From contig CALFWV010000103.1 in assembly GCA_937927825.1 (NCBI GenBank), forward strand, positions 1 to 36,743: 36,743 bases of DNA, given 5' to 3'. The DNA is from an uncultured Caulobacterales bacterium. GTDB lineage: Bacteria > Pseudomonadota > Alphaproteobacteria > Caulobacterales > Maricaulaceae. The notes beneath the pieces were generated by a model. It had not been told where the DNA came from. It was given only the letters and a program-made list of their open reading frames with translations, and searched no databases. Positions 17,184 through 26,408 of this stretch are shown in pieces. Position numbers and translations under genes: made by a program. How positions within the stretch are numbered: the stretch's first letter is position 1; each line of letters begins with the position of its first letter.

Positions 17184-17258
17184 GGGCGATTAGCTCAGCG
17201 GGAGAGCACTACATTGACATTGTAGGGGTCACTGGTTCAATCCCAGTATCGCCCACCA
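17184..17258 (+). tRNA. tRNA-Val (anticodon GAC)
   Basis: Cloverleaf: acceptor GGGCGAT/ATCGCCC, anticodon arm CTACA-TTGACAT-TGTAG, T-arm CTGGTTCAATCCCAG, encoded CCA. Confidence 0.95.
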
Positions 17259-17373: not shown

Positions 17374-18264
17374 ATGACCGGACTCTCCCGTCAGTTTAAA
17401 CATTCTATAAAGAAATTGCTCGCGCCAGATTCTTTGGACGAAATTTTTATGATGTCCAAATCCAGTCCGGTTTCTCACGAGGGGAATATTGCATTCTCAG
17501 CGTTCCAAAACCGTGTTTTTGAAGATATTTTTCCAGACTTTACCTATGAATTTTGTACAACAAGTCAGACGAAACTGTCGGAAAAGGGTGAAATTCTAGA
17601 TATCGTGACGGTATTGTGGAATTTGCCCGATGAGTGCCTATCCAGTTACATGCAAAATGCTCATTTGGACTCATTGTCGCCGTTAGTTTACGCTAATCCG
17701 GGTCGGGCGCTTAACTATACGCATATCATTCGGGCGGAGCGCCTTGAGGAATATCCCTTCTTCGTCAATCACTGCCTAAAGTTTGGAATACATCAAGCGA
17801 TGTCGGTGGGGTTCCTAAACCCCGGCCATGAGAGCACATTTTTATCTTTTGATTATCTGGGCGACGAAAATAACTTAAGTTGGGTTCCATTCGATCACGT
17901 AAAAATTGAATTAGCCTCCTTCCCTTTCGCTTTGGCATGGCTATACCGAGCGGGAGTATTTGATGAACGGCGATTAAAAAAAATGTTCTTACTGCTCTCC
18001 GGGTTGACCGAAAGCCGGTTATTGAACCTGCGGAAATATATAAATTCGCCCATGCAAAGCTTTGATCAACAAGCGGCGGACTTGGGCATTACCGCCAGTA
18101 CGTTGAAAGAAGATTTGGGTACTATTCGCGATAAAACAATTATAAAATTAGGCCTTAAGACGGACCCCAACCGCAACACCCCCACGCGCTTGCTTGATCA
18201 GCACTATAGTTTTTTAAGCCTGTTGGGCGATCACACTGCCGAGTTGGAGGGTTTACCGTCTTGA
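17374..18264 (+). CDS. divergent LuxR-like regulator (autoinducer-domain-like N-terminus, HTH C-terminus)
   Basis: Start reassigned to ATG 17374 (gaTGTAGGGATACG upstream). C-terminal 'LSGLTESRLLNLRKYINSPMQSFDQQAADLGITASTLKEDLGTIRDKTIIKLGLKT' has a LuxR-HTH layout; N-terminal ~170 aa resembles LuxR sensor domains. Confidence 0.55.
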   Translation: MTGLSRQFKHSIKKLLAPDSLDEIFMMSKSSPVSHEGNIAFSAFQNRVFEDIFPDFTYEFCTTSQTKLSEKGEILDIVTVLWNLPDECLSSYMQNAHLDSLSPLVYANPGRALNYTHIIRAERLEEYPFFVNHCLKFGIHQAMSVGFLNPGHESTFLSFDYLGDENNLSWVPFDHVKIELASFPFALAWLYRAGVFDERRLKKMFLLLSGLTESRLLNLRKYINSPMQSFDQQAADLGITASTLKEDLGTIRDKTIIKLGLKTDPNRNTPTRLLDQHYSFLSLLGDHTAELEGLPS

Positions 18265-19931
18265 CCGTTAGCCGCTGACGTAATCCATTCCGATACCATC
18301 GATTTGGCGAGATAGTCACATCTCATTTCCGCAGGTAGACTATCAAAATTTCCAACAACGCCCGTGCATCGGTCAGCGCCACATAAACAGCGTTCCAAGA
18401 CCCAGTTTGAATTTTCTGAACATCTGTAATCCCATGTTAATTGTTCGTCTCGCGCAATATCTCGTATTGTAAATATTTCTGTTTTATTTCGAATGCCGCA
18501 ATTGGGATCGCAAGAATGGCATAGTCGATGCGCCAAGCCCTTATATCCGAAGACATATTCCTTCGGCCCGACTTGAATAGCGTGGTCCCGCATTATTTCG
18601 GGCAACCCAAGAGCTGTGTCTGAGTGATAGGTCTCCCCGCTGAAAATGGCGATGCGGGTGCCGGCTGGAATATTTTTTGTTGCAAAAACGGCGAGTCCTG
18701 ATTTTCCGTTTGGTGTGACGACGACCGCAGTCTCATCAGTTGGTTGAGAGATATAATATTGTGTCCGATATTGCCGTTTTTCTCGTGCGGCTGTTCTTAA
18801 CGCGTAATTCCAGTGTTTCTTATCGCCCGTGATTAGAAATAGGGCTTGGGACATCTGAGCGCAAAATACTATCGGGTGATCATTTTTCAAAATCCCAAAC
18901 ACGAGGCGGTCATTCAAGGCTGTATTTAACGTATGCGCAGTCCCATGTGGTGGAATTTCAGAGGCGAGAGGTAAGGCGGCATGGGCCGGACTGATTTTCT
19001 GGGCCATGGACTTCATCATTTTATAAAAAACGTCCCCACCTTGAATGTCCGGATTTAAGACTTGAGCGGAAATTGTCATGAGCGGGTCTGTTGGGTTTAA
19101 TCCGAAGTGATATGCTATTTTGTCGAAAAATCGCTTTGGGTCATCGTGGAGGCGCTCATCTTCATAGGCGCTAAAAAGAAGGGGATTGGACCATTCTTCA
19201 CTCTGGAATAGCCTTTCGACGGTTCCCATTCGCGAATGCAATAAGCCTTTTAATTGCCCACTCGCGCTGTGTCTGACAAGTGTTACATATCCGGGATCTG
19301 TAAGCCTGTCTTGTATAAGGGTTCTGCATTTCCCTTTATCCGTCCAAAGATGAAATCCGGTCGGAAGAAGAACCGATTCTAGGTCTTCCGGAGGAGGGGC
19401 CTTCATGGCGCGTTGGAAGGCGGCCTCGCGCAAAGTCTCTTGGCATATTCTGCGTTTTTCGGGATCAGACAGGGCAACACTCACCGTGTAGGCGTCGAAG
19501 TCCAAACTATGAGGCAAGGACTGAAGCGGGTCGCTTTCATGAAAAGCAAAATGAAAATAGGGAGCCCTACAGAAACTACGTCTAAAATAGTCGGCTATTT
19601 CAAGCACCACCTCGGTCGGCAGAGTCTCTGCATCATAGGTGCAACTGCTGATAGGATTTTTATCCCCGAGATTGTCACTTAGAACTTCAACTTCAGGGCA
19701 TGTCTCCATGTCTACGCCAATAATATCGCTTCCCGCGGCGTGGGCTGTCTTTAGTTTGTCTATTGTTTGCGATGAATAGCGCATGCCTGGGATGATTTCA
19801 GGAATCCCCGGAGGATATTGCCGGATAGTTGAAGCCGCAACCCTGCCCGTCGCCGCGCGCAATGCGACGCGCTCTGTTGGAGCCACAAAGGCATCCCATG
19901 CGCGGATAATGTCATGCGTATCATTGGTCAT
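18231..19931 (-). CDS. SET-domain protein with Orn/Lys/Arg-decarboxylase C-terminal-like N-terminus
   Basis: N-terminus 'RAWDAFVAPTERVALRAATGRVAASTIRQYPPGIPEIIPG' matches the OKR decarboxylase C-domain pattern (APTERV..E.AvGRvsa..i.pYPPGIPii.PGe). C-terminus 'GKSGLAVFATKNIPAGTRIAIFSGE...LCHSCDPNCGIRN...IARDEQLTWDYRC...CLCGADRCTGVVG' = SET plus post-SET CxCx4C. Confidence 0.82.
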   Translation of the reverse strand: MTNDTHDIIRAWDAFVAPTERVALRAATGRVAASTIRQYPPGIPEIIPGMRYSSQTIDKLKTAHAAGSDIIGVDMETCPEVEVLSDNLGDKNPISSCTYDAETLPTEVVLEIADYFRRSFCRAPYFHFAFHESDPLQSLPHSLDFDAYTVSVALSDPEKRRICQETLREAAFQRAMKAPPPEDLESVLLPTGFHLWTDKGKCRTLIQDRLTDPGYVTLVRHSASGQLKGLLHSRMGTVERLFQSEEWSNPLLFSAYEDERLHDDPKRFFDKIAYHFGLNPTDPLMTISAQVLNPDIQGGDVFYKMMKSMAQKISPAHAALPLASEIPPHGTAHTLNTALNDRLVFGILKNDHPIVFCAQMSQALFLITGDKKHWNYALRTAAREKRQYRTQYYISQPTDETAVVVTPNGKSGLAVFATKNIPAGTRIAIFSGETYHSDTALGLPEIMRDHAIQVGPKEYVFGYKGLAHRLCHSCDPNCGIRNKTEIFTIRDIARDEQLTWDYRCSENSNWVLERCLCGADRCTGVVGNFDSLPAEMRCDYLAKSMVSEWITSAANGQDGKPSNSAV

Positions 19932-21171
19932 AATTATGGCTCAAATTTTGGGTGAGGGAGATATTTAAAGCCGCCTTTAAGCGAAATAGGATTTCATCAA
20001 TTTGCGTAAGAAATTCGGGTGACCCGCAGAGAAGAAGCAAAGTGCTGGCTGTCGATTTTTCCACATCGACGGCAAACTCGCTCGACAGCACTGCGGCCCA
20101 GCGCCTTGCGTCGAGATTTTCAATGTCATGGGTACTAATAAGGATGTGGGTGGGGTCATGTGTCTCTGCGCCAACGTCAGTAGGCTTAACAATTCGAAGC
20201 GCAGGATGTACGTCTTGAATGCGTTCGGATAATTTTTTGGCAGCCTTTTCAGCGTGCTCGAAAAACCTATCCCAAGCGCCAGTGGTGATTTGTTCAAGAC
20301 GATATTCGGCAATCATAATGTCAACAAACGACACACTTGAGGACCTAAAGCCAAGATCTAAAGCTTCATCCCAGAGCCGCGCAATCGCTTCATTTTCGGT
20401 CAGAATACACCCCAAGCTGGACGGCGTAAGACCGCGTTTATGCGGACTCGTAATCCAGACGTCGCAAATAGAGGACAATGCGGGTTTTTCATTTTTTGGG
20501 CTGCGAAATCTCAAAGCGTCCCAGGCCCCGTCAACAACCACTGAAATCCCATTTGATTTCGCATAGTTATAAATCTTTATATCTTCTGACGGGGACCGAA
20601 ACCCATCATAGGAGGGAAGAACAAGAACTAGAGCTGCAAATCGGTGTGGGCCATGTAGTTCTACAAGGTCTTTGACTTTTTCTAACGTCAGGGGCCGAAC
20701 GGTTTCGTATTCCGGCTGGTGTTCCCGAACCAAACGGACGGCGGTCCAACGCCCAAATATAAGGCCGCCAATTGTACTTTGATGGCAGACATCATCAAAT
20801 AATATCAAATCTCGCTCCGGGCACAGTTTTGGAAATACGGCAATCAATAAAGTCAGTAATGCGCCCGAGGATCCGCCAAATGAAAGGCTCGCAAACCGCC
20901 CCCCGTAAAGCTCGGTCAACAAAATATTGACACGGTTCACGGGTCCCAGGTCTGAAGAAGACGGTAAAGAGAACCCTCGGTGTGAAATTGAATGTTCGGC
21001 AAACTCCCAAAGCGTACTGTAAATATTTGAGAAAATTTTCGATAGATGATCAGTATGGCGAGGCCTAAATAGGCTGAGAATGAATAGCTTTCCTAAGGGG
21101 TTTAAAACCAACGCAACGAAAGACAAAATATCTCGACGGCGGACGGACAGCGGGTCAGGGGATGTTGTCAT
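19921..21171 (-). CDS. Orn/Lys/Arg decarboxylase-like PLP-dependent (fold type I) protein, major domain only
   Basis: 'LILFDDVCHQSTIGGLIFG' (His130), 'LVLVLPSYDGFRSPSEDI', 'ISVVVDGAWDALRF' (Asp214), 'DVWITSPHKRGLTPSSLGCIL' (Lys245 in S-x-H-K). 11-nt overlap with the downstream SET gene. Confidence 0.78.
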   Translation of the reverse strand: MTTSPDPLSVRRRDILSFVALVLNPLGKLFILSLFRPRHTDHLSKIFSNIYSTLWEFAEHSISHRGFSLPSSSDLGPVNRVNILLTELYGGRFASLSFGGSSGALLTLLIAVFPKLCPERDLILFDDVCHQSTIGGLIFGRWTAVRLVREHQPEYETVRPLTLEKVKDLVELHGPHRFAALVLVLPSYDGFRSPSEDIKIYNYAKSNGISVVVDGAWDALRFRSPKNEKPALSSICDVWITSPHKRGLTPSSLGCILTENEAIARLWDEALDLGFRSSSVSFVDIMIAEYRLEQITTGAWDRFFEHAEKAAKKLSERIQDVHPALRIVKPTDVGAETHDPTHILISTHDIENLDARRWAAVLSSEFAVDVEKSTASTLLLLCGSPEFLTQIDEILFRLKAALNISLTQNLSHNYDQ

Positions 21172-21430
21172 TTTTTTCGGGATGAAATTTTGATCGGCGT
21201 GCAGAATGAAAAACGCTTCCCCTGGAAAAGGGATTTAAAAATCGACCCGCGAAGGGATTGGGTCCGGGTCTGGGTCTGCAATAGATTTGGCATGCGGTCT
21301 TCCTTGTTGGAGTCCAGCTTCTAAATTTCTGCTCGGTGATGCCATGAACCGGTCCGAAACTCATTCAAACGTTCTGTCGTTAAGTCATTGAAAATATGAT
21401 TTAATAAATCGAGACTTGCCGTATGTTATC

Positions 21431-24025
21431 TTAATCGGGCGCCGTCATTTTTATGTCGTCTATCCCAATTTCAGGAATAGAGTTTCGAATGTTCTCGGGA
21501 GGGATGTTGGCAAGAGCTCCATCCATGCCCAAAAATGTGCAGTGCCGAAACTTTGCGTCTAAAAGAAGTTCTGCTCCGTAGCTTTCTGCGAAGGCACACT
21601 GTGAAAAAATGCACCGATCAAAAATGACGTTTTCAAAATGAGAGGAGAAAAACTCTACATCTGCAAAATGACATTGAGAAAAGAATGTCCCTTTCATCTC
21701 ACAACCGGAAAAACTACTGGCTTGAAATCGGGAGCCTTGGAAAAGGCAGTGCAATACATTCGTATCTAACACCCGCCAATGGTGAAAAATAGATTGAGGA
21801 AATACGGTTTGAAAGAAATGCGACCCGGTGACTTTCACATGACTCCACTGGGTCATGGCAAAACGTGAATTTTCAGTTGTTAGACTTTCAACATGTCCCG
21901 GTGTGAAATTTAACTGGCTCATATCCGCGGATTTTAGGTGAAGTGCAGAAAGGCTTTGGGTTAGAAACCGAACGTCTTGTGCCTCGGCAGCATCAATGAA
22001 CGATGATTTGAAATTCAGCCCTTTAGGTTGCTGTGTGAGTTTAAAGTCCGAGCTATTAAATAGCGACGTAACTCCAGACATAGGGAAGGCCGCCCCAGTA
22101 CGTTTAAGTCGTTCCAGGTTAAAACATGACCAGACAAAAAATAACAGTGCAGTGGCGTTTTGCATTTGGGAGAACAGGCTTAACCCACGTGTCTCGAGAT
22201 CCGCAGGATGGATGTGTTCGCGAATTATAGTCAGCGCTACGTCCCATGCCGAATTCGAAGCTTCATCGAATCGAAGAGCCGCTTCTTTTTGACAAAAATC
22301 AGCTAAACTTGGTCCGTGATGTCCCTCGGATGAAAGTTTAATCCAGTCCTTTAACGCAATTTCAAATTCAACTGACGTCCCGAAGGAAGCGATAAGCAGG
22401 CTGAACTTATCTAGAATATAAGTGCTGATCAAATATTCGGAAAAGCCTTCATGGACAAACTGAACTCGTCCTGTATCAATATTTGCGGCACCTTGTGACA
22501 GAGCGCTGTGTTGCCCCGACATGAGAAAAATTGGAGATGTTTGGCCCGGCGCCTCGAGGAATTTCAAAGCCGTGAAGGCCCCCTTTATTTCGGGGTCGTC
22601 AACATCTTCATATATCCGCCGGAGCGAAACGGTCTGCCCGGCTTTGTTGTGCCACACCGTCACAGCAATGTACTGGAAAACCCTGAGCAAGAGCTTCTCA
22701 TCTAAGACGTGCCGGAGGTTTAAAGTTTGATGCTCTAAAATTGTTTTGAATATTTGGTTCCTGTTGGAGGTGTTGGTCAGAGCGTTAATCCGCTCATGGG
22801 GCAAGGCAAGGGATGAATCGTTCTGGTTTGCTTTAAGACCCGACTGGCACATCAGAAAAGTGAGCAGTGGGACCCGTCCAAACTGAAAGAACTCATCATA
22901 TTCTACACTCAAAAAATCCGGAAGGCTTTGGTCTTCCATGTAGCCATTTGCATCGAGATATTTGTCCCACCAGGTCCCGCGTAAATCCGCTCCGTGGCCG
23001 GTTTCCGAAGCGGTTTCATTGCGCAAGCTCCCATCCAGGCCGCACATAATAAAACGCCGGGCGTTATCCAAAGAAATTTGATTTGCGTAAAATGAAACAT
23101 GGGACTCTTGACCCAGAGCCATAATTTGAAGTGTTTTATTGTGAGCAGCACACGCCGCTTGCTCCATCTTCAATGTTTTGATGAGCTGACTTATTGGATT
23201 TTGAGAGGCTTGAGACCCATGATATATTTGGTCTATCCCATCCAATATAAGGGAAGCTTTTTTAAAAGATGATAATCTGAAGTGTTTCAGAAAAGATGAG
23301 GCCGAAAAAGAATCGCCAATGGGTTGACTGGGATTCAGCATGTCGATGTCGATGTCTGAGAGTCGGTCTCCGCGCAAGTAAATCGGAAATACGTCTCCGC
23401 TGCAAAATGTTTGAGCTAAGTGCAATGCGGCCATAGACTTACCGGCGCCCGGACCCCCGCTTATGAAAATCCAATCATTTTGTGTCGCGGTTAAATCGGC
23501 GTCTGGCGGAAGAGCAATGATATCTTCAATGTCTTGCGGCGTTGCCTCGGCGGTGTCTGCGGCTCCCAACTGAATAGGGACATAAATATCGGACGATGAA
23601 TAATTTTGATTTGGGAACTTTCCAAAATATAGCTCTTGTATCCAATTGCGATGCTGCGCGCAGATAAGGTTGGAAAGCTCTGAGGACTCTTTTTGCGTAT
23701 TGTCCTGAGTACGGCCTGCAGAATGCAGAGCCCAAACAGTTTCAAAGGCCGTTACCCAGCTTTTTGCAAGATCGGGGGCGGTCACCGTTTCAATCATTCT
23801 TAAAAAAGCACTGGAGTAGCGAGTAGGAATAACGTCCCTGTTTTTCCATTTGTTTATTGTAACGGTGCTAACGAGCTTGCCTCGGGTAAAGTCCTGAAAT
23901 GCGTCGCTAAAACTATCTTCCGTCCAATGCCCAACTTGAAAATAAAACCTGAAAAGTTCTGAGGGGCTAAATTTTGTAAAATCTTCCGGTGGCGGGATCT
24001 TGATAGGTTTACGCAAAATTCGCAC
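21431..24025 (-). CDS. STAND/NACHT NTPase with HTH-like N-terminus and pentapeptide-like C-terminus
   Basis: Walker A 'IFISGGPGAGKSMAALHLAQ', NACHT-type Walker B 'ASLILDGIDQIYH', winged-helix-type 'QFVHEGFSEYLISTYIL', C-terminal 'CLFQGSRFQASSFSGCEMKGTFFSQCHFADVEFFSSHFENVIFDRCIFSQCAF'. Likely start is TTG at 24016 (spaced from AAAAGG) rather than GTG 24025. Confidence 0.8.
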   Translation of the reverse strand: MRILRKPIKIPPPEDFTKFSPSELFRFYFQVGHWTEDSFSDAFQDFTRGKLVSTVTINKWKNRDVIPTRYSSAFLRMIETVTAPDLAKSWVTAFETVWALHSAGRTQDNTQKESSELSNLICAQHRNWIQELYFGKFPNQNYSSSDIYVPIQLGAADTAEATPQDIEDIIALPPDADLTATQNDWIFISGGPGAGKSMAALHLAQTFCSGDVFPIYLRGDRLSDIDIDMLNPSQPIGDSFSASSFLKHFRLSSFKKASLILDGIDQIYHGSQASQNPISQLIKTLKMEQAACAAHNKTLQIMALGQESHVSFYANQISLDNARRFIMCGLDGSLRNETASETGHGADLRGTWWDKYLDANGYMEDQSLPDFLSVEYDEFFQFGRVPLLTFLMCQSGLKANQNDSSLALPHERINALTNTSNRNQIFKTILEHQTLNLRHVLDEKLLLRVFQYIAVTVWHNKAGQTVSLRRIYEDVDDPEIKGAFTALKFLEAPGQTSPIFLMSGQHSALSQGAANIDTGRVQFVHEGFSEYLISTYILDKFSLLIASFGTSVEFEIALKDWIKLSSEGHHGPSLADFCQKEAALRFDEASNSAWDVALTIIREHIHPADLETRGLSLFSQMQNATALLFFVWSCFNLERLKRTGAAFPMSGVTSLFNSSDFKLTQQPKGLNFKSSFIDAAEAQDVRFLTQSLSALHLKSADMSQLNFTPGHVESLTTENSRFAMTQWSHVKVTGSHFFQTVFPQSIFHHWRVLDTNVLHCLFQGSRFQASSFSGCEMKGTFFSQCHFADVEFFSSHFENVIFDRCIFSQCAFAESYGAELLLDAKFRHCTFLGMDGALANIPPENIRNSIPEIGIDDIKMTAPD

Positions 24026-24246
24026 CTTTTAATTGTAATTGTAATTACGCAACGAAACCGCAAATCGCCCGACAATCGTAGGGTGTGGCAACTGGGCTAA
24101 TCTCATAGAGCAGAGAAGTACTCCTAGCGGAGGATGAAGTGATGATTCAAGATGTCTTGGAGTTTGAAGGGCTTTCTAGTTTTTCTGCCTGAACATCCAA
24201 ACAATCGGCACTTCGGCAATACTTAATCCCTTCCAATTTTGTTGGA

Positions 24247-24585
24247 ATGGGAGGGTTTGTAATTCTTCGCGTAACATTGTTTGGAATCCGTAATTCCCAC
24301 TTACGAAACGGTACCATCTTGTTTCGGCGGATTGTTGAACCTAAACCGCGCCTTCTGATAAAGCGAGGCAGGCCAAATTTGCGTGTTGAGACGAGTGCAG
24401 CTGCAGGTCCTGATGTGGCGAAATTTGTTCTTAATCTCGAAACAGGTTTTGACGTCTCATCGGGGCCTGCGCCCTATTTACAGCTGACATTCTATGAAAA
24501 TCTCTCTGTTGAAAGACGGTTGGATGGCTTGTTGCTTGGGCTTGCATCACTTATGGCAATAGCGTGTCATTTTTTCGCGTTATAA
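24247..24585 (+). CDS. hypothetical protein (uncertain ORF)
   Basis: 112-aa ORF upstream of and overlapping the 24564 gene by 22 nt; no recognised motif. Confidence 0.3.
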   Translation: MGGFVILRVTLFGIRNSHLRNGTILFRRIVEPKPRLLIKRGRPNLRVETSAAAGPDVAKFVLNLETGFDVSSGPAPYLQLTFYENLSVERRLDGLLLGLASLMAIACHFFAL

Positions 24586-26408
24586 AATCCACGGTTTTAT
24601 CCGTAGGCCTCCTCGGCGTGAACCTGCCGATAGCGGAGGCGCGAGACCTTTCTCCGCGAGAGAGGTCCGTCTGTTCGTCATTACGCGCGTGCATCGATAT
24701 AACCTCCCGGCATGACGCGTCCGAATTTGACTATGATGTGTTAGAGGCCGAATTTCGGCGATTCGGTTTCGGCGGGAAACAAGCGCTCTTTACCTTGCTG
24801 GACAGTGATAAAGGCCAGTCGGACATAGCGAGACTGATTTCGCGATTGGGGCCTTTGACGACACAAGATCGGCAGCGCATTCAGTCGCAGTGGTCGACGG
24901 AAAAAGCAAAAACCTATTTACCTTTGCTCTTGGACGGGCACCCTATGTCAAGAGACTTACTCTTGAAAACTTTGGGCTATTCAGATGCGGACGTTAGAGA
25001 ACAGGCTCGAAGAGCTCTTGTTCGCCTGCCTGAATACGTGCAGCGAGCGCCTATATCGACCCAGTTGCAGAAGCCTTTATTGGCCGCCCTGGTCCAGGAT
25101 CCAAATCCTGTGGCAGCGACATATTTAGCTCGAATAAGCCCGGCTGGCCACGAGCCCCAATTCGCAAAATTACTCAGTAGCGGCGACACCGAAATTGTTA
25201 CCGCAGCCTATAGCGCGCTATACAGATATAGTCCTGCAAAAGCGTTTAATACACTTTTGGGCGAGATGGCGCGTTTCGAAACACCAGCCCAATCGCGGGC
25301 TGTGGGAATGATGTTGGCAAGACGAAATGCGTCGCGGCCCGACGGGTTTTATCTGAAATTCGCGCGAGATATGTCGGGCGACCCCAAACTCTCCATACCT
25401 GCTCGGGCAAGTGGCCTGCACGGGTATTTGACGATTGCTGATGGTGCGTTCCCGGAGCTGACGCCCCCGCGATCTGAAGCTTTTTCGTTTTTGGTTAAAA
25501 GTGAGCCTTTTTTGACGCAAAATTATTATCTGCCCTATATCAAGGCCGCGGATTCGGACGCGGGCCTTGACTTGATTTGGAATATTGCTCGCGCTGAAAA
25601 ATGGACAAACCGGGATAGGATTGCCGCGTTCTTTACGGATCACCGTTTAAACCAGATAATCACGACAAATCTACTCCAAGCGAGTGACATCCGATCTTTT
25701 ACAGAAGGGCTCCGCCGCGCGGAACCAGAGCACACTCGATTTATAAGGGCGCAAATTGATCACCCGGTTTCTGCCATTGCAGCGGCGGCGCGTCAGAAAT
25801 TGAAACTTTCAGCCCCGCAAGCTCGGACGGGCAACTGCTTGATCGGCGCATTTGATTTAGAGGATATCCGTGCCCAAATGCCGTTTTTTGACGAAGGTTG
25901 GACAGTTGCGCAAAATAGCGCCCGGGTGAGTTTGCCTCGCTCAACTCTGACAACGGCGCACCCAAGTTCATCTGGCTGGTTGGCCGGGTATGATTTGTCG
26001 CGACAGGGGCGCAGGGGCACGTATTCAGGCGGAGCGCTTTTACACCATGATAATAAATCGGGCGCTTTCAAACCTATTGGGAAATTTCAAGGGCCGGTGG
26101 CCATTCTTCCCTCTCAACCGCTGCGGCTAGGTCAAACAACTAATCAATTTTGGGTCATTGATGCATCGAGAGGCGGGGAGCTCAATCTCTCGGCGTACAA
26201 AGTGGATATTGGCGGCGTCATGCCGCGTATCTCGCATATGGGGGCACTACCGGTCACGGCGACCTCCTTTGCGGTTGCACCTAATGGTGATTTACTCATC
26301 GCTTTTGATGGCAAAAAACAAATGCCAATCAGATTATCGAAGACGGGCGGGATGTCTTTTGCGTGTTCACCGAACCGAGCCTCGAATACGCCGCGCGCAC
26401 CACAATAA
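24564..26408 (+). CDS. exported HEAT-like repeat protein
   Basis: Signal peptide 'VIKSTVLSVGLLGVNLPIAEA'; helical repeats 'DADVREQARRALVRLPEYV...QKPLLAALVQDPNPVAATYLARI...'; C-terminal beta-rich region. GTG start; stop overlaps the mrp ATG (TAATG). Confidence 0.6.
   Translation: MSFFRVIKSTVLSVGLLGVNLPIAEARDLSPRERSVCSSLRACIDITSRHDASEFDYDVLEAEFRRFGFGGKQALFTLLDSDKGQSDIARLISRLGPLTTQDRQRIQSQWSTEKAKTYLPLLLDGHPMSRDLLLKTLGYSDADVREQARRALVRLPEYVQRAPISTQLQKPLLAALVQDPNPVAATYLARISPAGHEPQFAKLLSSGDTEIVTAAYSALYRYSPAKAFNTLLGEMARFETPAQSRAVGMMLARRNASRPDGFYLKFARDMSGDPKLSIPARASGLHGYLTIADGAFPELTPPRSEAFSFLVKSEPFLTQNYYLPYIKAADSDAGLDLIWNIARAEKWTNRDRIAAFFTDHRLNQIITTNLLQASDIRSFTEGLRRAEPEHTRFIRAQIDHPVSAIAAAARQKLKLSAPQARTGNCLIGAFDLEDIRAQMPFFDEGWTVAQNSARVSLPRSTLTTAHPSSSGWLAGYDLSRQGRRGTYSGGALLHHDNKSGAFKPIGKFQGPVAILPSQPLRLGQTTNQFWVIDASRGGELNLSAYKVDIGGVMPRISHMGALPVTATSFAVAPNGDLLIAFDGKKQMPIRLSKTGGMSFACSPNRASNTPRAPQ

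Follow-up and report, generated by a model that had tools for sequence, protein, structure and literature searches.

The window analysed here is the whole 36,743-nucleotide contig CALFWV010000103.1, from the 2.55-Mb draft genome of an uncultured Caulobacterales bacterium; it belongs to a group of alga-associated ocean bacteria in the family Robiginitomaculaceae, represented among named genomes by Litorimonas cladophorae KCTC 23968 and by Hellea/Caulobacterales metagenome-assembled genomes. It contains a cassette of four genes, encoding a LuxR-like regulator, a protein that carries a SET domain behind other domains, a pyridoxal phosphate (PLP) enzyme and a NACHT protein of the STAND type. Two of the four are predicted to encode one decarboxylase between them, and the cassette as a whole probably serves in signalling or metabolism and not in defence against phages. 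The locus comprises the following features, with lengths in amino acids (aa):

17374-18264, plus strand: luxR-like gene, 296 aa, with a divergent autoinducer-binding-like domain and a C-terminal helix-turn-helix (HTH)
18231-19931, minus strand: SET-fusion gene, a 566-aa trimodular protein with an Orn/Lys/Arg decarboxylase C-terminal domain (residues ~10-90), a putative GNAT-fold domain (~95-330) and a SET domain with post-SET cysteines (~400-530)
19921-21171, minus strand: PLP gene, 416 aa, Orn/Lys/Arg decarboxylase major domain
21172-21430: 259-bp intergenic gap between the NACHT and PLP genes, with two blocks conserved in all eight genomes that hold the cassette
21431-24025, minus strand: NACHT gene, an 864-aa STAND-type protein with an HTH-like N-terminus (15-82), a NACHT/AAA NTPase (Walker A at 190-197) and C-terminal pentapeptide repeats
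24067-24084: 18-bp palindromic operator-like site, ACCCTACGATTGTCGGGC on the minus strand, 42 bp upstream of the NACHT start
17184-17258, plus strand: tRNA-Val(gac), which borders the cassette as context and not as a member
24564-26408, plus strand: gene for an exported HEAT-repeat protein, divergent, the constant right-hand neighbour of the cassette

An earlier sequence-only reading had described three minus-strand genes facing a convergent LuxR-like gene in an AT-rich segment lacking an integrase, a transposase or any defence marker, and this layout is confirmed. All four open reading frames (ORFs) are intact at the positions it gave, the PLP and SET-fusion genes overlap by 11 bp, and 115 bp separate the end of the tRNA from the LuxR-like start. 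The GC content of the cassette is 46.5%, against 51.4% and 51.6% in the 5 kb to its left and right (about 51.5%), and none of the window ORFs read is an integrase, a transposase or a defence marker.

The NACHT and PLP genes occur in the identical 8 of 18 genomes of the genus, and the LuxR-like gene in those eight plus one genome of another genus. Every holder has the SET-fusion gene between the PLP and LuxR-like genes, and the order is constant throughout: the HEAT gene, then NACHT, PLP and SET fusion in one direction, with the LuxR-like gene convergent. Among the genomes searched, the complete four-gene set was not found outside these eight, and a search for the PLP gene in 386 further genomes from a class-wide sample gave no match. 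Identity to the window proteins is highest for the LuxR-like protein (63-85%), intermediate for the SET-fusion and PLP proteins (51-66%) and lowest for the NACHT protein (34-46%), which is the fastest-diverging member and has a variable C-terminus. The left-hand neighbours (tRNA-Val, cpdR and an N-formylglutamate amidohydrolase gene) are also constant, except in genome G394, where an island intervenes. A tree of the amidohydrolase groups the holders into a single clade (90/92 support), whose sister is the non-holder G396. This pattern fits one acquisition followed by vertical inheritance, and loss in other lineages may also have occurred. The functional link between the NACHT gene and the PLP and SET genes, which the first reading considered unproven, is thereby firmer at the level of a conserved unit: in the neighbourhood comparison that it had proposed, the three occur together, in the same order and beside the same neighbour, in all eight holders. 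Neither of the two outcomes that it had named as fatal to a cassette, presence throughout the family or lack of linkage elsewhere, was observed.

Insertion at the tRNA-Val was considered and rejected: beyond the cassette, the 3' end of the tRNA does not recur over 10 bp or more. The tRNA-Val of G396 (locus L116, 6795-6869) has, with respect to cpdR and the HEAT gene, the opposite orientation to that in holders, and because of this inversion that genome offers no clean empty site. The exported HEAT-repeat protein next door is itself fast-diverging, at 43-56% identity among holders and lower in non-holders.

One departure from known architectures concerns the PLP gene and the N-terminus of the SET-fusion protein. 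The PLP protein matches PF01276, the major domain of Orn/Lys/Arg decarboxylases, at 1.1e-5 and 24.8 bits, just missing the curated cut-off of 27, and residues 18-70 of the SET-fusion protein match PF03711, the C-terminal domain of the same enzymes, above cut-off (1.6e-7). In Orn/Lys/Arg decarboxylases the two domains share a chain; here PF03711 lies on the neighbouring polypeptide. Lys245 (in SPHK), Asp214 (in DGAWD) and His130 of the PLP protein are invariant across eight homologues, and the YPPGIP motif is intact in the C-terminal domain. When the PLP protein and residues 1-90 of the SET-fusion protein are joined in silico, they align over their full length with unsplit decarboxylases of ~520 aa from the sister-genus genome G404 and a Mesorhizobium plasmid, keeping the motifs SPHK (with the PLP Lys), DGAW (with the Asp) and YPPG as well as the His. 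Because the joined chains align end to end with unsplit relatives, the two genes appear to specify a single decarboxylase divided at the junction of its domains. A full-length model of the SET-fusion protein agrees, its N-terminus matching lysine/ornithine decarboxylases with Foldseek probabilities of 0.96-0.99. Compared with LdcI, ornithine decarboxylase and biodegradative arginine decarboxylase (PF01276 plus PF03711), the co-linear domains, the PLP Lys/Asp/His and the YPPGIP motif are common ground; the split at the domain junction, the GNAT and SET domains fused behind the C-terminal domain and the sub-threshold score of the major domain are peculiar to the cassette enzyme. Other alphaproteobacterial proteins matched through the C-terminal domain were set aside as ordinary unsplit decarboxylases, being ORFs of ~480-530 aa with the match at their C-terminal end. 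The relative on the plasmid of Mesorhizobium sp. AR10 (locus L051, 7599-9191) is surrounded by genes of condensation-domain-like, ATP-grasp, lysine 2,3-aminomutase and MATE exporter type that probably form a natural-product cluster.

The region between the decarboxylase domain and SET matched no Pfam family. Two AlphaFold models of it have a clear beta-alpha pattern, with mean predicted local distance difference test (pLDDT) scores of 52 and 59, and Foldseek comparison of the isolated domain from these low-confidence models returned mostly GNATs (E ~0.006-0.2, probability at most 0.98), with bacterial-toxin, agmatine and polyamine N-acetyltransferases at the head of a list that also includes LasI, a synthase of N-acyl homoserine lactones (AHLs). 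G298-G299 is invariant, and the models suggest a GNAT fold. Among 299 genomes sampled from the order, this domain was found in four: three cassette holders and G404.

The SET domain was recognised by the earlier reading and is clear (PF00856, 4.3e-10, or about 4e-10), but the fusion partners, the decarboxylase C-terminal domain and the GNAT-fold domain, had been missed; the supposed PLP and SET modifying enzymes are better read as one split decarboxylase-GNAT-SET enzyme. Invariant SET residues are H472-S-C, P476-N477 and Y502, corresponding to the HSCxPN core and the catalytic Tyr, together with the post-SET cysteines C515, C517 and C522. For the isolated domain the best single-sequence match in PDB is BurB (9l4t/9l4v, 3e-8), which S-methylates free methionine (PMC12542666, PMC7496086). 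As in the cassette, the BurB gene is paired with a PLP decarboxylase gene at its locus (PMC7496086); identity is nevertheless low (~27% in the Foldseek alignment), its partner decarboxylase BurI is of a different family, and the described steps towards dimethylsulfoniopropionate (DMSP) include neither a GNAT nor a NACHT protein. Around ten SET matches elsewhere in the class no recurrent decarboxylase partner was found, with several of the picked ORFs in the wrong frame.

Two rival accounts of the enzyme were weighed. Firstly, SET and GNAT might modify proteins by lysine methylation and acetylation, the decarboxylase part serving as scaffold or polyamine supplier. Some GNATs do acetylate proteins, the SET and post-SET cysteines are intact, and the SET protein of the sister genus, g277, scores best with histone methyltransferases; this account is nonetheless improbable, given that the nearest solved SET to the window protein is a small-molecule enzyme, that many small-amine acetyltransferases are among the GNAT matches and that the decarboxylase active-site residues are conserved. 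Secondly, a BurB-type sulfonium pathway could be envisaged, in which SET yields S-methylmethionine, the decarboxylase yields DMSP-amine and later steps lead to DMSP or a relative. The proximity to BurB and the pairing with a decarboxylase invite this idea, as do the aldehyde dehydrogenase gene adjoining the GNAT and SET genes in g277 and the abundance of Litorimonas on macroalgae (PMC12662954). Known S-methylmethionine decarboxylases (BurI/SMMDC), however, most resemble diaminopimelate decarboxylase and so belong to a different family from the cassette enzyme (PMC11464771), residues of BurB are not specifically kept apart from positions general to SET domains, and the DMSP route has no place for a GNAT. 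The pathway is thus very unlikely, and it was dropped as the leading explanation on account of the decarboxylase family and the unspecific SET motif.

The label of the LuxR-like protein was plausible, yet the resemblance is remote and the profile matches are weak. The Autoind_bind profile reaches an E-value of 0.024 at best, in two of nine homologues, and profile comparison places the protein co-linear with SdiA/TraR relatives over 164 columns (E 0.0016) with a probability of only 16%. Of the six conserved AHL-pocket residues listed for LuxR regulators (PMC10134790), three are replaced in every member (W57 lost, D70 to Ser, W85 to Tyr), so that the full pocket is found in none; Y61 and P71 are kept. 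The closest likeness is to LuxR solos for non-AHL ligands of the OryR/PipR class, with which it has in common changed residues in the AHL pocket, a dyad-symmetric site upstream of target genes and, probably, the order of an autoinducer-binding-like domain followed by an HTH (PMC10134790); the cassette protein differs in being very remote in sequence, longer (296 aa) and tied to a candidate synthase gene.

The 18-bp palindrome upstream of the NACHT gene is present in all eight holders and matches the perfect consensus, ACCCGACGATCGTCGGGT, in three of them in the upstream-region alignment. Scanned with a weight matrix, every holder locus yields exactly one site scoring 20 bits or more, some 41-60 bp ahead of the NACHT start; scores peak at 17.0 over 366 kb of other loci and at 16.6 over 20 Markov shuffles of the window. 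Because the NACHT sites served to train the matrix, their own scores are not independent, unlike the distant copies and the contrast between orthologues. Searched by pattern genome-wide, L. cladophorae has three perfect copies against ~1e-4 expected by chance, preceding the NACHT gene, a gene for a DUF4329 lipoprotein-like protein next to lepA and a gene for a small exported protein near carB. A site also precedes the DUF4329 orthologue in G397, and in G388 one lies near carB before other exported-protein genes. No palindrome was found at the DUF4329 relatives of the non-holders G390 and G403, nor at the small-protein relatives in G400 and G396. Because the site tracks the cassette, it points to a cassette-encoded reader, either the LuxR-like protein or the NACHT N-terminus; by analogy with LuxR boxes, which are dyad-symmetric sites (PMC10134790), the LuxR-like protein is the most likely candidate, favoured rather than proven. 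The downstream genes possibly form an envelope regulon. Among holders, the palindrome-bearing DUF4329 lipoprotein-like genes next to lepA lie at L151 8064-8630 and L155 7332-7904, and the small exported proteins downstream of the palindrome at L152 7439-8511, L153 2162-3922 and L156 7001-7366, near carB in two genomes.

The domain calls made for the NACHT protein largely stand. Its pentapeptide repeats match Pfam (4e-9) and its Walker A, GGPGAGKS, is clear; in the window copy alone the NACHT match falls below the Pfam cut-off (1.7e-3), while all seven homologues scanned match AAA_22/NACHT/nSTAND3. The best conserved part is residues 15-82, with 68% mean identity against 36-44% elsewhere; it looks HTH-like by eye and has one weak carph-isopro match (0.014). 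Bacterial defence NACHTs and STAND regulators such as MalT share the plan of an N-terminal domain, a NACHT/AAA core and a C-terminal repeat sensor, from which the cassette protein is set apart by its HTH-like N-terminus, its pentapeptide repeats, its vertical inheritance and its at most weak matches to defence families. Walker B reads DGIDQ in the window copy, DGLDE in most homologues and DGIEG in the L053 copy, and ATP hydrolysis may, judging by these motifs, differ among holders. The NACHT ORF of G402 (L054, 6494-8845) is shorter, at 783 aa, with roughly residues 430-520 of the window protein gone.

These features also bear on whether the cassette is one unit or two: a LuxR-regulated biosynthetic gene pair beside a STAND transcription regulator of the HTH-NACHT-pentapeptide type that acts independently, through a palindrome of its own. 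The 259-bp gap with conserved blocks of its own, probably a separate promoter for the PLP and SET genes, would suit such a division, as would the conservation and appearance of the NACHT N-terminus and the restriction of the palindrome to the NACHT upstream region, none being conserved upstream of PLP or luxR in the holder alignments. Yet NACHT, PLP and LuxR genes were never found separated within the genus, and a profile comparison of the NACHT N-terminus with the XRE proteins encoded by a neighbouring gene returned no match, which leaves two independent units a rather doubtful proposition.

NACHT STAND proteins are often defensive, and the sequence-only reading had proposed a conflict or defence-like cassette whose NACHT protein may sense and gate the PLP and SET enzymes. 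As an anti-phage system, the NACHT-pentapeptide protein would sense an invader and gate the decarboxylase-GNAT-SET enzyme or an effector at its own N-terminus. The NTPase region does weakly resemble the anti-phage family DS8 (E 1e-6 for the window protein, with matches in four of seven members), at 26.8 bits against an NCBIfam cut-off of 790; the pentapeptide repeats weakly match HalA, and the rapid divergence of the NACHT protein, with its conserved N-terminus and variable C-terminus, is compatible with conflict. However, none of the four window proteins has a PADLOC match below 0.02 and homologues have only weak ones, no cassette relatives were found on phage or viral contigs, and plasmids gave only distant partial matches. 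Rather than mobile or patchy spread in a defence-island context, the cassette is confined to one clade beside a fixed neighbour. G394 offers a contrast: its island, which carries a tyrosine integrase and the Lamassu genes lmuA, lmuB and lmuC (L057, 1-7000), separates luxR from the N-formylglutamate amidohydrolase gene and is recognised at once by the same PADLOC library, and the cassette stays in place beside it. The cassette-adjacent site thus takes a mobile defence island in this one holder. The proposed gating is not obligate either, because G404, of genus g277, has a convergent LuxR gene (~48%), a GNAT protein and a separate SET gene (47%), next to an aldehyde dehydrogenase gene, with no NACHT gene within the 20 kb read; the LuxR-GNAT-SET association thus exists without NACHT. 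Taken together, these comparisons do not support the defence proposal, which is unlikely.

The explanation we tentatively prefer, and put forward as a serious possibility, is a clade-specific, vertically inherited module for small-molecule synthesis and response, in which a LuxR-linked acylated and methylated amine would control the NACHT gene and envelope genes. In the scheme we infer, one Orn/Lys/Arg-type decarboxylase would be reconstituted from the PLP protein together with the first domain of the SET-fusion protein and would convert an amino acid to an amine; the tethered GNAT-fold domain would acylate this amine, and SET would add a methyl group to that molecule too. The product would be bound by the convergent LuxR-type protein, whose pocket is unlike that of AHL receptors, and a cassette-encoded DNA-binding protein, most likely this LuxR, would bind the 18-bp palindrome and control the NACHT gene together with genes for exported envelope proteins. 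In favour of this scheme count the full-length alignment of the joined chains with unsplit decarboxylases, the GNAT matches of the middle-domain models, the nearness of SET to BurB, the gene neighbourhood of the Mesorhizobium relative, the LuxR-like gene as the best conserved of the cassette with its replaced AHL-pocket residues, the palindrome in all eight holders, its perfect copies in L. cladophorae and its presence at envelope genes of holders but not at their non-holder orthologues, and the co-occurrence of LuxR, GNAT and SET without NACHT in g277.

Several points weigh against it. The LuxR assignment is remote, the structure models of the middle domain have low mean pLDDT, and the HTH-like domain of the NACHT protein could read the palindrome instead. 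An H..Q motif like that of BurB also occurs in other small bacterial SETs, and because they share it in general, the substrate cannot be read from it; the SET sequence as it stands does not appear to separate small-molecule from protein substrates, and the g277 SET leans, as noted, towards histone methyltransferases. In g277, moreover, the decarboxylase-like N-terminus linked to GNAT lacks YPPG, no PLP gene is adjacent, the unsplit decarboxylase of G404 lies ~127 kb from the LuxR-GNAT-SET locus, and no palindrome copy at that locus reaches threshold. Both the tethered decarboxylase and the NACHT gene track with the Litorimonas/Hellea clade.

No second case of the same gene composition emerged from the genomes searched or the literature found. 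The composition is that of a fold-I decarboxylase split at its domain boundary and tethered to an acyltransferase and a SET methyltransferase, beside a LuxR-type regulator and a NACHT gene with a conserved operator in its promoter, and the presence of the cassette in the type strain L. cladophorae KCTC 23968 makes it directly testable. If the product is a metabolite, the cassette would add one more bacterial SET enzyme possibly acting on small molecules. If it is a signal, the system would represent quorum-sensing chemistry without LuxI and a direct link from small-molecule sensing to a STAND protein: a hypothetical and rather unlikely form of signalling in which alga-associated bacteria would use the split decarboxylase-acyltransferase-methyltransferase to make a new acylated and methylated amine that, once read by a LuxR-type receptor, would turn on envelope proteins and a STAND protein of the NACHT kind.

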